From: a virus
DNA: 45,117 bases
Strand: one strand, 5' to 3'
Virus record (IMG/VR): IMGVR_UViG_3300010374_000221
Span: 1-45,117 of that record
The notes under the pieces are model-generated. The model was not told the DNA's origin. It was given only the letters and a program-made list of their open reading frames with translations, and did no database searches. Of the stretch, positions 3,654 through 31,598 are shown piece after piece; the stretch's first letter is position 1; each line of letters starts with the position of its first letter. The position numbers and the translations under genes are program-made.

Positions 3654-4519
3654 CTCTCCCGATCATTTCGGCGGATCAGCGTCTCGCGGAAAACCGCGGC
3701 ATCAAGGGCGTGATCTTCGGCAAATCCGGCATCGGCAAGACCAGTCTGCTCTGGACGCTTCCTGCAACGACGACCCTGTTCTTCGACCTCGAGGCGGGTG
3801 ACCTCGCCATCGAAGGGTGGACCGGCGACAGCATCCGTCCCCGCACCTGGGAGGAATGCCGCGACTTCGCCGTGTTCATCGGCGGGCCGAACCCGGCGCT
3901 GCGCGACGATCAGGTCTACAGCCAGGCGCATTACAATGCGGTGTGCGCCCGGTTCGGCGATGCCGCGGCGATCGACCGGTACGAGACAGTCTTCATCGAC
4001 TCGATCACGGTTGCCGGGCGCCTGTGCTTCCAATGGTGCAAGGGGCAGCCCGAGGCATTTTCCGACAAGACCGGTAAGCCCGACATGCGCGGCGCCTATG
4101 GTCTGCACGGCCGGGAAATGATCGCCTGGCTCACTCACCTGCAGCACACCCGGACCAGGAATATCTGGTTCGTCGGCATCCTCGACGAGAAGCTGGACGA
4201 CTTCAATCGCAAGGTTTTCCAGCCGCAGATCGACGGTTCCAAGACTGGCCTCGAACTGCCTGGCATCGTCGATGAAGTCCTGACGATGGCCGAGGTGAAG
4301 GACGAGGCCGGAACCGCTTCGCGTGCCTTCATCTGCCAGACGATCAACCCCTGGTCCTACCCGGCAAAGGACCGGTCTGGCCGCCTCGCGCTGGTCGAGG
4401 AACCGCACCTGGGCCGGCTGATGGCCAAGATCCGTGGTCCCGTCACGCCCGCCAGCGACCGGCTCGAATTCGGCCTGCCCGACGTGTCGGTAGCCAACAC
4501 CCAATCCCCCCAAAACTGA
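3650..4519 (+). CDS. Sak4-like RecA-fold ATPase (phage recombination protein)
   Basis: The 289-residue protein has Walker A GKSGIGKT (residues 24-31) and Walker B VFIDS (114-118) in a compact RecA-like core, the form of phage AAA_24/Sak4 proteins that promote ssDNA annealing together with a phage ssDNA-binding protein. The following gene is an ssDNA-binding candidate and then a helicase, the order often seen with Sak4. It starts 4 nt inside the previous gene. A general ATP-binding role is certain from the motifs; annealing activity is inferred from context. Confidence 0.82.
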   Translation: MTLPIISADQRLAENRGIKGVIFGKSGIGKTSLLWTLPATTTLFFDLEAGDLAIEGWTGDSIRPRTWEECRDFAVFIGGPNPALRDDQVYSQAHYNAVCARFGDAAAIDRYETVFIDSITVAGRLCFQWCKGQPEAFSDKTGKPDMRGAYGLHGREMIAWLTHLQHTRTRNIWFVGILDEKLDDFNRKVFQPQIDGSKTGLELPGIVDEVLTMAEVKDEAGTASRAFICQTINPWSYPAKDRSGRLALVEEPHLGRLMAKIRGPVTPASDRLEFGLPDVSVANTQSPQN

Positions 4520-14838: not shown

Positions 14839-16080
14839 ATGGATCAGAACTGGCCGGCCCAGAACAGTGAGTTCTGGCCGATAGAGAAGATCACGCCCTA
14901 CGCGCGCAATTCTCGCACGCACTCCGACGAGCAGGTCGCACAGATCGCGGCCTCGATCCGCGAATGGGGCTGGACCAACCCGGTGCTGGTCGACGAGGAT
15001 GGCGGCCTGATCGCCGGTCACGGCCGGCTTTTGGCGGCACGCAAGCTGGGCCTGACGCAGATCCCGACTATGGTCGCCAAGGGCTGGAGCGAGGCCCAGA
15101 AGAAGGCCTACGTGATCGCCGACAACAAGCTGGCGCTGAACGCTGGCTGGGACGCGGAATTGCTGCGTGTCGAACTGACTGACTTGCAGGCCTTCGACTT
15201 CGACCTGGGGCTCACCGGCTTTTCCGATGACGAACTGGCTGCGCTGACCGCGGTGAAAACCGACGGGTTGACCGATCCCGACGAGGCTCCCAACCCTCCG
15301 GAAATTCCGGTGAGTTGCCTGGGCGACGTCTGGCTGCTGGGCAAGCACCGGCTGATGTGCGGCGACAGCACCAGTGTCGACGACATGGAAAAGCTGACCG
15401 CCGGGCAGATGGTGGACATGTGGCTCACCGATCCGCCGTACAATGTCGCCTATGAGGGCGGCACCAAGGACAAGCTGACCATCCAGAATGACAACATGGC
15501 GGACGACGATTTCCGCCAGTTCCTGCGCGATGCCTATGTCGCCGCCAGCACGGTGATGAAGCCGGGCGCGGTGTTCTATATCTGGCACGCCGACAGCGAG
15601 GGCTACAATTTCCGGGGCGCGGCGCGTGATGCCGGTTGGACAGTACGTCAGTGTCTGATCTGGAAGAAGTCGTCTCAGGTGATGGGGCGCCAGGACTATC
15701 ACTGGCGGCACGAGCCCTGCCTCTATGGCTGGAAGGACGGCGCCGGGCACCTGTGGGCGAGCGATCGCAAGCAGACGACCATTCTTGAATTCGACAAGCC
15801 GTCACGCAATGGCGAACACCCGACCATGAAGCCGGTCGCACTGTTCGAGTACCAGATGCTCAACAACACCAAGGGTGGCGACATCGTGCTCGACAGCTTC
15901 GGCGGATCAGGCACGACCCTGATTGCCGCCGAGAAGAATGGCCGCATCGCGCGGTTGATGGAACTCGACCCGCGCTACTGTGACGTGATCATCCGGCGCT
16001 GGCAGGACTTTACCGGCCATACCGCCACCCTCGAAGCCGACGGGCGAACCTTCGCTGACGTTAGCGAACAACCACGGTAA
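14839..16080 (+). CDS. ParB-domain fused DNA methyltransferase (beta-class N4/N6)
   Basis: In this 413-residue protein, residues 13-100 are a ParB/Srx-like domain (ITPYARNSRTHSDEQVAQIAASI, then GLIAGHGRLLAARKLG). A methyltransferase follows with the catalytic TDPPYN at about 196-201 ahead of the AdoMet site DSFGGSGTT at about 352-360, the order of beta-class N6-adenine or N4-cytosine enzymes. The DPPY motif favours adenine. ParB-methyltransferase fusions are common in alphaproteobacterial prophages and probably protect phage DNA or regulate genes. No cognate nuclease lies beside it, so it is an orphan enzyme, next to a second methyltransferase. Confidence 0.9.
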   Translation: MDQNWPAQNSEFWPIEKITPYARNSRTHSDEQVAQIAASIREWGWTNPVLVDEDGGLIAGHGRLLAARKLGLTQIPTMVAKGWSEAQKKAYVIADNKLALNAGWDAELLRVELTDLQAFDFDLGLTGFSDDELAALTAVKTDGLTDPDEAPNPPEIPVSCLGDVWLLGKHRLMCGDSTSVDDMEKLTAGQMVDMWLTDPPYNVAYEGGTKDKLTIQNDNMADDDFRQFLRDAYVAASTVMKPGAVFYIWHADSEGYNFRGAARDAGWTVRQCLIWKKSSQVMGRQDYHWRHEPCLYGWKDGAGHLWASDRKQTTILEFDKPSRNGEHPTMKPVALFEYQMLNNTKGGDIVLDSFGGSGTTLIAAEKNGRIARLMELDPRYCDVIIRRWQDFTGHTATLEADGRTFADVSEQPR

Positions 16081-16088
16081 CAACGTGC

Positions 16089-17114
16089 ATGACATGGCTC
16101 TATCTCCCCCCGGATACGCTCCAGGGCGCGATGACGCATGCCTGCACGGACTTTCCCTGTGCGCCGGTGCAGGCGGGCTCGACCTCGGCCTCCACATCGC
16201 CTGTCCCGGATACCGCACTGTGGGTTACGTCGAGCGGGAAGCCTTCGCAGCGGCCACTCTCGTGGCGCGGATGGAAGACAAAGCCCTGGATCCGGCGCCT
16301 GTCTGGGACGACCTTACAACCTTCGACGGCCGGCCATGGCGCGGCGTCGTGGATATCCTCACTGCGGGCTACCCGTGCCAGCCATTCTCGGTTGCCGGAC
16401 GGCGTCTCGGCGAGGCTGATCCGCGCCATCTCTGGCCCCATGTCGCCCGGATCATCCGCGAATGCGATCCTGGCCTCGTCTTCCTCGAAAATGTCGCCAA
16501 TCATCTGCGCCTCGGATTTCCCGAAGTCGCGCGAGAACTGGTCGGCATGGGCTACCGGCTTGCGGCAGGATTGTTTACAGCGGCGGAAGTCGGCGCGCCG
16601 CACCGGCGGGAACGCCTGTTCATCCTCGCCGTCCGAGAAAACGGCGATCTGGCCAACGCCAAAGGCGATCACGGGCGGGCCGAACTCGAAACGTGCGGAG
16701 CGCGGCGCGGGTGGACCGGACCTGCAGGAAGTGGCGGCCCAGTGGCCGACGCCGATGGCGAGCGACGGGAACAAGCCGAGTGCGGGCAACCGCAAGACGG
16801 CGGACCTGACCCATGCGGCCGGCATGTGGATGACCCCGACGGCCCGGGACTACAAGGATGGATCGACCAGTCTTGCCAATGTGCCGGTGAACGGCCTGCT
16901 TGGCCGCCAGGTCCTGACGACACCGCCGCGTGGGACCGATATCTCGGACACGCGCCGGACCTTGAACCCGCTGTTCGTCGAGGCGCTGATGGGCTGGCCC
17001 ACCGGGTGGACCGGCTTCGACTTTGCGGAAACGGAGTGGTCCCCCTGGTTGCGGCGCATGCGCTGCGAACTCTCGCGTCTCAGCTCGTCCGGCATCGGAG
17101 CAGCCAAGGTATGA
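16089..17114 (+). other. Overlapping +1-frame ORF with WPTP-type methyltransferase C-terminus
   Basis: This frame is open for 341 codons over the C5-methyltransferase. From about 16640 it encodes WPTP repeats (16650, 16743, WMTP at 16827) and ends LNPLFVEALMGWPTGWTGF ... EWSPWLRRMRCELSRL. That pattern is known to me as the C-terminus of many phage C5-methyltransferases. Its stop (17112-17114) lies 3 nt before the terminase start, a cleaner junction than the other frame gives. The N-terminal half of this frame has no family features. It may be a frameshift product, a relic of a frame exchange, or an accident of dual coding. Confidence 0.4.
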
Positions 17115-17164
17115 CGGATGAAGCCCGGAACGAAACCCAAACCAACCCATCTGAAGCTGATTGA
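16094..17164 (+). CDS. C5-cytosine DNA methyltransferase (Dcm-like)
   Basis: The 356-residue protein shows motif I LSLCAGAGGLDLGL (about residues 20-33), the catalytic PCQ in GYPCQPFSVAGRR (Cys95), motif VI ENV (132-134), motif VIII HRRERLFILAV and a C-terminal motif GNGVVPLVAAHAL (from 312). It transfers methyl to C5 of cytosine, presumably protecting phage DNA. GTG 16085 is another start. The end runs 47 nt into the terminase gene. The target-recognition part shows LANAKG and VADADG repeats. The +1 frame of the same region is also open and family-like; see the next feature. Confidence 0.85.
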   Translation: MALSPPGYAPGRDDACLHGLSLCAGAGGLDLGLHIACPGYRTVGYVEREAFAAATLVARMEDKALDPAPVWDDLTTFDGRPWRGVVDILTAGYPCQPFSVAGRRLGEADPRHLWPHVARIIRECDPGLVFLENVANHLRLGFPEVARELVGMGYRLAAGLFTAAEVGAPHRRERLFILAVRENGDLANAKGDHGRAELETCGARRGWTGPAGSGGPVADADGERREQAECGQPQDGGPDPCGRHVDDPDGPGLQGWIDQSCQCAGERPAWPPGPDDTAAWDRYLGHAPDLEPAVRRGADGLAHRVDRLRLCGNGVVPLVAAHALRTLASQLVRHRSSQGMTDEARNETQTNPSEAD

Positions 17165-17600
17165 GGGTAATCGCGGCAAGCGAGCCCTGAACCGCAAGGA
17201 GGCCAAGGCCAAGGCGGCCATTCCCGCACCGCCCCACCATCTGACCGCCGATGCGGTCGAGGAATGGAACCGGGTGGCAACCGAACTCTACAACCTCGGG
17301 ATCCTCTCCGAGATCGATCGAGCCGCGCTCGCCGCCTACACACAAGCCTATGGCCGCTGGGTCCAGGCCGAACGCGCGATCGCGAAAATGGCCGAGAAGG
17401 ACCAGCTGACCGGCGGCCTGATGATCAAGACCTCCAACGGCAACGCGATCCAGAACCCGCTGGTGGGCACCGCCAACAAAGCGGCAGCGGACATGATGCG
17501 TTACGCCGCAGAATTCGGGATGACGCCGAGTGCCAGGAGCAGGATCGCGGCCCAGCCGCCAGAAGAAGGCACGGACCCCGCCGACCGCTTCTTCGCCTGA
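17118..17600 (+). CDS. Terminase small subunit, P27 family
   Basis: The 160-residue protein has the P27 hallmark: GTKPKPTHLKLIEGNRGKR at the start, then PAPPHHLTADAVEEWNRV and LYNLGILSEIDRAALAAYTQAYGRW, with NPLVGTANKAAADMMRYAAEFGMTPSARSRI at the end. It binds the packaging site and brings in the large subunit. A clear cos or pac site could not be seen in the upstream sequence. The gene overlaps the start chosen for the large subunit. Confidence 0.92.
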   Translation: MKPGTKPKPTHLKLIEGNRGKRALNRKEAKAKAAIPAPPHHLTADAVEEWNRVATELYNLGILSEIDRAALAAYTQAYGRWVQAERAIAKMAEKDQLTGGLMIKTSNGNAIQNPLVGTANKAAADMMRYAAEFGMTPSARSRIAAQPPEEGTDPADRFFA

Positions 17601-30400: not shown

Positions 30401-31598
30401 CTACGCCATTGCCGGCCTCGACCAGTTCCAGAAGGTCGGCGAAGGCTATTTCGAGACGCTGATCCGCGTTGCCTCCAGCGTCGAGGCGGTCACCAGCGCC
30501 ATGACCATGCTCGGCCGGTCCACCAACCTGACGATCGCCGCGTCCATGAACCTCGTCGAGCTGTTCGGCTCGGTCAGCGACATGACGGCGGCGACCGGGG
30601 AGTATTTTGCGCTCTATTACACCGGCACCGAACAGGCCGCCGCGCGCACGGCGCAGATGACCGCTGGGCTGGCGAGCATGGGGCTTGCCATGCCCGACAG
30701 CATCGCGGGCTTCCGGGCGCTGGTCGAAGCCCAGGACCTCACCACCGAGGCCGGCCGTGCCGCCTATGTCGCCCTGATCCAGCTGGCCCCGGCCTTCGCG
30801 GACTTGGTGGGTGCAGCCCAGGATGCGGCCAGTGCGGCAGCCATTGCCGACGAACGCGCCTCGCTCGAACGTCGCCTGCTCGAATTGCAGGGCGATACGG
30901 CAGCACTGCGGGCGCTCGATCTTGCCCAGCTTGATGCCAGCAACCGCGCACTGCAGCAGCAGATCTGGGTGCTCGAAGATCAGCGGCAGGCGGCCGAAGC
31001 GGCAGCCAGTGCCGCCGAAAAGCTGCGCGCGGCCTGGGCAGCGATCACCGACGCCCTGATTGCCGAGATCGAGCGGATCCGGGGCGTGATGGGCACGAAG
31101 GCTGGCAGTTATGCCGAGGCGCTGGCGAAGTTCAACAATGCCTCCATGCTGGCTCGCGGCGGTGACCAGGAGGCAGCCAAGGCGCTGCCGGGTCTGAGCC
31201 AGGCGCTGCTGTCGCAGGCTGCCGAAACCGCCCGGTCGTCGGAAGATCTGGCCCGACTTCAGGGCCTGACGGCCGCCAGCCTCGAGCAGACGCTGGCGAT
31301 CATCACTCAGGCTGCCGGCAGCGGCGCGGCCACCGATGCGGCTGCCACCAGCAATCCGGATCCGAGCTGGTGGGAGCAGTTTGCGGCCAGCCAGATCGGC
31401 ACGGCGACCATTCCGGTCAATGATGACCAGTCGGCGCTGCTCGATGAGCTGCGGGCACTGCGGCAGGAAGTGGCGGACCTGCGCGGTGAACAGCGGATTG
31501 CTTCGGCCGCCATTGCCTCGGGCACTACCAAGACCGCCCGGATCCTCGAGCGGGTGACTCCGGACGGCGACGCCCTGTCGACGAGGAATGCGGCATGA
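27456..31598 (+). CDS. Tail tape measure protein
   Basis: The ATG at 27456, behind GGAGG, gives 1380 residues, the longest phage gene. It starts TLEIEMITNVARLQKEMADMKRTVGGTM, with hydrophobic stretches at about 100-160 and 250-290 and a glycine-rich core, and has long coiled coils near the end (ERASLERRLLELQGDTAALRALDLAQLD). This is the tail-length tape measure build (lambda gpH type). By the usual 0.15 nm per residue the tail would be about 200 nm; this is an estimate only. A 4-nt overlap joins it to the next gene. Confidence 0.93.
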   Translation: MRAGTLEIEMITNVARLQKEMADMKRTVGGTMNDIAATAGRADRAIEAVGTRGITRMGGSAKLAGHQMQNLVYQLNDVVVSLASGQKPMTVFMQQGSQIGQIAMQAGVGIGGMARAVLGLAASSAAAALTNPYLLAAAAAAGIAFGAFKLFQSSVKQSGELDRYAQSLGLTAKEMEKLGPVGITAGDVMRGLWRTISDGLNLGAVFSSLKDWAVWAFQKVLEVGKISIAVIYAGWVGGFSAIRTVWQALPGVIGEAAVGAANLAISGIEYLANKAIAALNWLASWVNPVLDRVGLATISQIETVALPRMENSFAGSTARMGATVRDEFTSAFGDAMGMMDAFSAQWRENTLQAARDRLAADAAGIRADRSDRAGRAGSGRNSREESEAERALQAAQEFAAALAMETAKIGKTPIEIKRMEVAMAALKAPTDAARIAILEAGEAWEQATRAFATSEFLRHTVAPLELQVSLLGQSARAQALANLEAEREQIVLERGVEAWERYRAARSQLIEHNFGLKEQEQYLDTLQEMADRTQTAAQGMAEAFGSVGGAIGAVAAEFARYAADQEAATRRIAEAEREYGRSSFQYAAARTAQAAAEINHYGNLASAAKGFFKAGSKGFQALEAAEKAFRAYELAVAIKNAAVKIGLIGAQTTAKVASDTAMAASDTARAGVEQGNSIITTGIKAVEAVVNAIRSLPFPLNIAAGAVTAGVIASLGVAIGGAFGGGGPKLDPANEGTGTVFGDAEAKSESIAKAIDHLREVDTLTMRYSAAMLASLRSIEANIGGLTNLIIRTNGAEDLAAGVQTGFKPTGVTAILGGAMQKVGSVLDKIPVIGGILGGVVGAIGKLIGSLFGTKTSVVGQGIYGGAQSLGGIMAGGFEGQYYTDIQKKKKFLGITTSTRYSTQYSEASAELERQFSLIFTGFYDAISAAAGPLGMSLDEVQARLDSFIINIGKIDLKGLTGAQIQEKLAAVFGAAADNLARYAIAGLDQFQKVGEGYFETLIRVASSVEAVTSAMTMLGRSTNLTIAASMNLVELFGSVSDMTAATGEYFALYYTGTEQAAARTAQMTAGLASMGLAMPDSIAGFRALVEAQDLTTEAGRAAYVALIQLAPAFADLVGAAQDAASAAAIADERASLERRLLELQGDTAALRALDLAQLDASNRALQQQIWVLEDQRQAAEAAASAAEKLRAAWAAITDALIAEIERIRGVMGTKAGSYAEALAKFNNASMLARGGDQEAAKALPGLSQALLSQAAETARSSEDLARLQGLTAASLEQTLAIITQAAGSGAATDAAATSNPDPSWWEQFAASQIGTATIPVNDDQSALLDELRALRQEVADLRGEQRIASAAIASGTTKTARILERVTPDGDALSTRNAA

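Follow-up and report, generated by a model that had tools for sequence, protein, structure and literature searches.

A Phage C5-Cytosine Methyltransferase Gene Read in Two Frames Likely Encodes a Catalytic and a Specificity Subunit

Introduction

Just ahead of the terminase genes of the virus record IMGVR_UViG_3300010374_000221 (IMG/VR; the window is the whole 45,117-nt stretch analyzed), the same bases can be read as a C5-cytosine DNA methyltransferase in one frame and as a protein with WPTP modules in the next. This raises the question of whether both frames are genes and, if so, what two products of one stretch of DNA would do. A preliminary description had proposed two proteins with different target domains produced through frameshifting, or a record of frame exchange between families.

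The small-subunit gene of M.EcoHK31I, a C5 methyltransferase recognizing YGGCCR, lies within the large-subunit gene but in a different reading frame. Motifs I–VIII and X of this enzyme are on the large polypeptide and only motif IX is on the small one, with the predicted target recognition domain (TRD) placed in the large subunit (PMC3404938), and it has served as a naturally split methyltransferase (PMC3439449). In M.AquI the break falls within the variable region, and motifs IX and X are on the small subunit (PMC3404938).

Layout of the Overlapping Genes

Two complete overlapping genes were found at the locus, P0 in frame 0 and P1 in the +1 frame, with the following arrangement:

14839–16080, + strand: N6/N4 methyltransferase with a ParB-like N-terminal domain (context, and control gene for the selection analysis)
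16085–16092, + strand: dual start GTGCATGA, with the P0 GTG at 16085 and the P1 ATG at 16089, the starts being 4 nt apart
16085–17164, + strand: P0 (alpha-like), C5-cytosine methyltransferase of 359 aa, frame 0, motifs I–VIII and X
16089–17114, + strand: P1 (beta-like), 341 aa, frame +1, with N-terminus MTWLYLPP, WPTP modules and a motif IX-like end
17118–17600, + strand: terminase small subunit (context; PF05119, E 7.2e-29)

The +1 frame is open from the ATG at 16089 to the TGA ending at 17114, so that the dual coding covers almost the whole length of the gene rather than the C-terminal half to which the preliminary description had limited it. Within the overlap, frame 0 reads LANAKG, VADADG, and GNGVVPLVAAHAL, and the +1 frame reads WPTP, WPTP, and WMTP, then LNPLFVEALMGWPTGW and EWSPWLRRM. 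The +1 stop (17112–17114) is 3 nt ahead of the terminase start at 17118, and frame 0 overlaps the terminase gene by 47 nt (17118–17164); the open frames, motifs and terminase distances given in the preliminary description were thus borne out. It was also correct that the same DNA encodes both motifs, as TGGCCGACGCCGATGG is read as (V)ADADG in one frame and as WPTPMA in the other. The LANAKG/VADADG and WPTP elements had been called repeats, but they are divergent modules, and a tandem-repeat origin of the WPTP modules was rejected because a tandem-repeat search found none there. Elsewhere in the window, a short tandem repeat with a 15-base unit in 2.3 copies is present at 30851–30884. Two methyltransferase loci lie just ahead of the terminase genes, the N6/N4 gene being directly upstream of P0/P1.

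Division of Methyltransferase Motifs Between P0 and P1

Residues 23–188 of P0 matched Pfam PF00145 in a profile search (E 1.6e-31), and matches to phrog_363 (E 1.7e-60) and phrog_116 in PHROG span most of the protein. P0 has the catalytic part of PF00145, comprising motifs I, IV (PCQ), VI (ENV), VIII, and X, of which the following were located by sequence and by conservation in alignment A3:

16373–16390, + strand: motif IV PCQPFS with the catalytic Cys; P97, C98, and Q99 invariant
16487–16495, + strand: ENV motif; E135 invariant and N136 nearly invariant
16601–16630, + strand: motif VIII region HRRERLFILA; H173, R175, and R177 invariant
17027–17044, + strand: motif X GNGVVP; G315 and N316 invariant

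In the AlphaFold (AF2) model of P0, pLDDT exceeds 90 for the core (residues 21–185) and for the motif X helix (320–341). The best PDB match of the core is M.HhaI, over about 170 residues, and the catalytic core fold is that of the monomeric M.HhaI and M.HaeIII. In those enzymes a single chain also includes the TRD and motif IX. P0 differs: motif IX is absent, and residues 189–267, which are the frame-0 reading of the TRD, have pLDDT below 50 and are predicted to be unfolded.

The corresponding elements of P1 are as follows:

16650–16661, + strand: first WPTP, the same bases being LANA in P0
16650–16961, + strand: recognition-domain region, mainly +1-coded (ratio 0.08 in the +1 frame and 0.43 in frame 0)
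16743–16754, + strand: second WPTP, the same bases being VADADG in P0
16827–16838, + strand: start of the third module, WMTP, identified by sequence
16962–17009, + strand: motif IX-like LNPLFVEALMGWPTGW, identified by hhalign matches to motif IX

The conserved end of P1, LNPLFVEALMGWPTGW, matched the region around motif IX in mycobacteriophage enzymes whose motifs IX and X share a frame (hhalign E 6e-5) and aligned with RRLTPLECERLMGFPDEHT of a conventional viral C5 methyltransferase (hhalign E 2.5e-4), both matches being short but specific. P1 had no family match in Pfam or NCBIfam and no meaningful match in a PDB profile search, and AF2 of P1 alone gave no fold at useful confidence (mean pLDDT 52.8). 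It did match phrog_1008 (E 2.6e-16) and phrog_27243 (E 4e-17). These two and phrog_31772, which P1 also matched, are PHROG families of WPTP proteins listed as DNA methyltransferase or of unknown function, with no overlapping partner mentioned in their entries, and they appear to be the annotated +1 frames of such dual-coded genes. The number and kind of WPTP modules differ among relatives.

Neither chain alone has the full motif set, so the locus does not encode two complete methyltransferases, and for the same reason P0 and P1 should act as a heterodimer.

Distribution Among Phages

Related loci (L001–L104 and L110–L269) were collected by scans with P0, the +1 C-terminus, and an N-terminal alignment, and come mainly from Alphaproteobacteria prophages. 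Motif X in frame 0 together with WPTP and motif IX (LMGWPxGW) in the +1 frame was found in 185 of 210 unique loci. The same layout occurs in phages of Synechococcus, Lacticaseibacillus, Microcystis, Vibrio, Klebsiella, and Acidovorax and in E. coli phage N15, and, with no recognizable motif X, in phages of Komagataeibacter. In three further scans, which covered three distant groups, it was present in 39 of 58 R9.1-type, 56 of 61 Microcystis-type, and all 5 N15-type unique loci, and the N15 P1 alone matched 197 phage records. Both frames therefore have many homologs, as had been anticipated, and the two "families" of the preliminary description are the same DNA in two frames. In Acidovorax Alfacinha3 gp46 (L270) and Klebsiella PIN1_0040 (L273), the CDS deposited as a methyltransferase corresponds to the +1 protein, and no CDS is annotated in the frame that holds the catalytic motifs.

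Several loci depart from the common arrangement. L247 (3001–4600) has several frame-0 stops between motifs VIII and X beside a long, intact +1 WPTP array, and full-length P0 is therefore not universal. Apparent register changes in L016/L028 and L027 were set aside as probable sequencing errors (Ns, single indels). L265 (~3700–4200) and L412 (~2250–2700), which are unrelated, each carry an inserted HNH endonuclease sequence at one shared position between motif IX of P1 and motif X of P0, suggestive of a homing hotspot in dual-coding DNA. Inserts of ~1.1–1.2 kb interrupt the N-terminal half of P0 at different codons in L038, L043, L056, L061, and L101, for which an Rfam search returned no intron family matches, and a partial repeat of the N-terminal part of P0 takes the place of the insert in L054, L067, and L090. 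The mycobacteriophages A1SD1 (L271) and Papez (L277) have motifs IX and X in frame 0, with a single LLPTP module persisting in the +1 frame before a stop, possibly as an intermediate or relic of the split arrangement. Among Lactobacillus-type P1 proteins, 14 of 22 contain QLxLF, which resembles the bacterial sliding-clamp-binding motif (0.2 expected); it was seen at the P1 N-terminus in L284–L296, L311, L324, and L325 and at the C-terminus in L106, L246, and L247.

Selection in Both Frames

Stop codons are depleted in each frame. Over the stretch from WPTP to motif IX in 185 loci, frame 0 contained about 2 stops vs. 494 expected under +1 coding alone, and the +1 frame contained 2 vs. 37 expected under frame-0 coding alone, a deficit much greater than chance would give. 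The three distant groups had no stops in either frame (expected 80, 179, and 8.6 in frame 0 and 41, 57, and 2 in +1). In the N half there were 13 +1 stops vs. 154 expected, and 96% of loci were open vs. 52% expected; this depletion is partly compositional, because the +2 frame was also somewhat depleted (281 vs. 633).

Variation among codon positions shifts along the gene. The most variable position is the third of frame 0 in the N half and the first of frame 0 (the third of +1) at 16660–16870, and the frame-0 pattern comes back around motif X. The dominant frame is thus 0, then +1, then 0, as would be expected if two successive frameshifts, from 0 to +1 after motif VIII and back after motif IX, produced one enzyme with motifs I–X, and the occurrence of motifs IX and X in one frame in mycobacteriophage enzymes also fits such an enzyme. 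However, it would require neither a stop-free frame 0 across the WPTP stretch, where about 2 stops stand against 494 expected and 0 against 179, nor an open +1 frame in the N half, which is nevertheless kept open. We therefore judge this route to be very improbable.

Overlap-aware ratios from 79 independent sequence pairs were 0.08 in frame 0 and 0.38 in +1 for the N half, and 0.41 and 0.08, respectively, for the TRD half, where dNS was 0.20 and dSN 0.039, +1-synonymous changes being five times commoner than frame-0-synonymous ones. To remove the ascertainment bias of picking loci by +1 similarity, we repeated the test with loci that only the N-terminal P0 query had retrieved; the frame-0 and +1 ratios were then 0.08 and 0.43 for the catalytic half and 0.43 and 0.08 for the "TRD" half. 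The control, the non-overlapped upstream N6 methyltransferase gene of the same loci, had a frame-0 ratio of 0.05 and a +1 ratio of 1.06 (0.90–1.25); a terminase-large control was left out as it had one usable pair. Relative to the control, constraint on the +1 frame therefore extends over the entire gene. In the TRD half it equals in strength the frame-0 constraint on the catalytic domain, and frame 0 itself stays constrained in that half as well. From this mirror-image selection in the two halves we infer that both frames are translated and that the recognition region is mainly +1-coded.

These results bear on whether only P0 is functional, with +1 conservation a mere shadow cast by the conservation of P0 and by a codon usage rich in GC. 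Most +1 similarity in the N half is indeed a shadow of the catalytic sequence, and +1 ORFs open easily in GC-rich genes (probability of an open frame about 0.84 for the TRD stretch). Such a shadow is at odds with the excess of dNS over dSN in the TRD half and with the control gene, which lacks +1 constraint in the same loci, and phages with a GC content of about 46% show the same pattern. The overlap-aware rates and the control already refute this explanation unless alignment artifacts account for the codon-phase switch in three groups, and we give it almost no credence. Both frames are conserved and under purifying selection, as the preliminary description had suspected. This excludes a frame exchange after which one of the frames lost its function, while an ancient origin by exchange is possible.

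Independent Start of P1

Almost every alphaproteobacterial relative has the dual start in the form ATGCATGA, GTGCATGA, GTGAATGA, or a similar sequence, together with a conserved P1 N-terminus, M[TSA]WLY[LIVF]PP. Codons 2–12 give a ratio of 1.20 for frame 0 and 0.28 for +1, so only the +1 frame is constrained at this 5′ end; P1 therefore starts on its own, and the frameshifting invoked earlier to yield two proteins with different target domains is not needed, being possible as a minor route. For N15-type loci, the probable P1 start lies within P0, downstream of the strong ribosome-binding sequence GGGAGGAAAATTTGATG. Shine-Dalgarno (SD)-like sequences precede internal P1 starts of the N15 and Lactobacillus types in 8 of 23 cases vs. 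an 18% background, a modest enrichment in which the signal is strong in N15-type loci only. For the K1ind3 and PhiXhv-18 phage records, the depositors annotated P0 and P1 as nested CDSs, with P1 in the +1 frame.

A programmed +1 frameshift after motif VIII, giving fusions of the P0 N-terminal domain to the WPTP modules beside full-length P0, would account for the sharp switch in constraint between frames just after that motif, and for those groups that lack a P1 start at the 5′ end, translation of the upstream +1 part is hard to prove. Programmed frameshifting leads into a downstream frame without its own initiation site, whereas P1 has a conserved start and an N-terminus, MxWLYxPP, constrained in +1 only. 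The +1 frame is also open through the N half, with a ratio of 0.43 vs. 1.06 in the control gene, no conserved slippery site was noticed on inspection by eye, and a strong SD-like sequence stands ahead of the internal P1 ATG in N15-type loci. A programmed frameshift is, in our assessment, improbable, and separate initiation of P1 is the reading we retain.

A Proposed Two-Subunit Methyltransferase

The dual coding, the division of motifs and the independent start of P1 are direct observations. On this basis we consider it likely that the locus encodes a dual-coded, heterodimeric C5-cytosine DNA methyltransferase, the two subunits being translated from a single stretch of DNA in different frames. 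P0, with motifs I–VIII and X, would be the catalytic subunit, and P1, starting 4 nt downstream in the +1 frame, would be the specificity subunit. The WPTP modules of P1 are likely recognition elements that would form or contribute to the target recognition region, and its LNPxFVExLMGWPxGW segment would supply motif IX, docking recognition onto catalysis. The two chains would associate physically as a heterodimer, as the M.EcoHK31I subunits do. The position between the N6 methyltransferase and terminase genes fits modification of phage DNA before packaging, and a protective role of this kind for the phage is probable.

The motif division is the same as in M.EcoHK31I, P0 having motifs I–VIII and X without IX and P1 having motif IX, and at the P0/P1 locus too the gene of the small subunit lies in an alternative frame of that of the large one. 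Several features set the locus apart from M.EcoHK31I. The two genes overlap virtually completely and start within 4 nt of each other (in N15 and R9.1 types the P1 start is inside P0); P1 carries arrays of WPTP modules under strong selection while the frame-0 TRD of P0 is predicted to be unfolded; and the gene pair adjoins terminase in a prophage-like genome. The TRD of M.EcoHK31I is predicted in the large subunit whereas selection here points to the small one, a difference that counts against the model. M.AquI is likewise a C5 methyltransferase split into two polypeptides, but at our locus motif X stays on the catalytic subunit P0 and the parts overlap.

P1 might instead be a genuine protein unrelated to methyltransferase function that overprints the gene, e.g., an independent anti-restriction or replication-linked protein, and its lack of a Pfam match and the clamp-binding-like QLxLF motifs of some P1s would be compatible with this. 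Nevertheless, a motif IX-like segment closes P1 at the very position of the motif missing from P0, every P1 seen among loci fetched mainly by P0 queries came with a P0 core, and M.EcoHK31I offers a precedent by analogy for a subunit of this kind. We regard a non-subunit role as unlikely, and favor P1 as the specificity subunit.

Significance

M.EcoHK31I already provides an example of a C5 methyltransferase in two chains, the smaller of which holds motif IX. In the open-licence literature searched we found no description of total overlap with starts 4 nt apart and deep, phage-wide conservation, nor of calibrated two-frame selection evidence that assigns the recognition region to the +1 frame, and as far as that literature goes, phage-wide total overlap appears to be undescribed. 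We also lean, with less assurance than for the heterodimer itself, toward a broader view in which a very common class of phage C5 methyltransferase genes, represented in alpha- and gammaproteobacterial, cyanobacterial, and lactobacillus phages, is an ancient gene pair with complete dual coding, catalysis being specified by one frame and modular DNA recognition by the other. Specificity could then shift as WPTP modules are gained, lost, or exchanged, with the catalytic frame running through this region as an unstructured linker.

If correct, this would rank among the best-supported examples of extended dual coding with ancient conservation in dsDNA phages (about 1 kb, with calibrated purifying selection on both frames). 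It would account for the many "WPTP" proteins that carry annotations as hypothetical proteins or methyltransferases, as well as phage records that annotate the wrong frame or only one. The model predicts that the frame-0 ORF expressed alone would give an inactive or non-specific enzyme and that the specificity of these orphan phage methyltransferases is to be sought in the +1 protein. M.EcoHK31I would thereby turn from a single biochemical curiosity into an example of a general, testable architecture.
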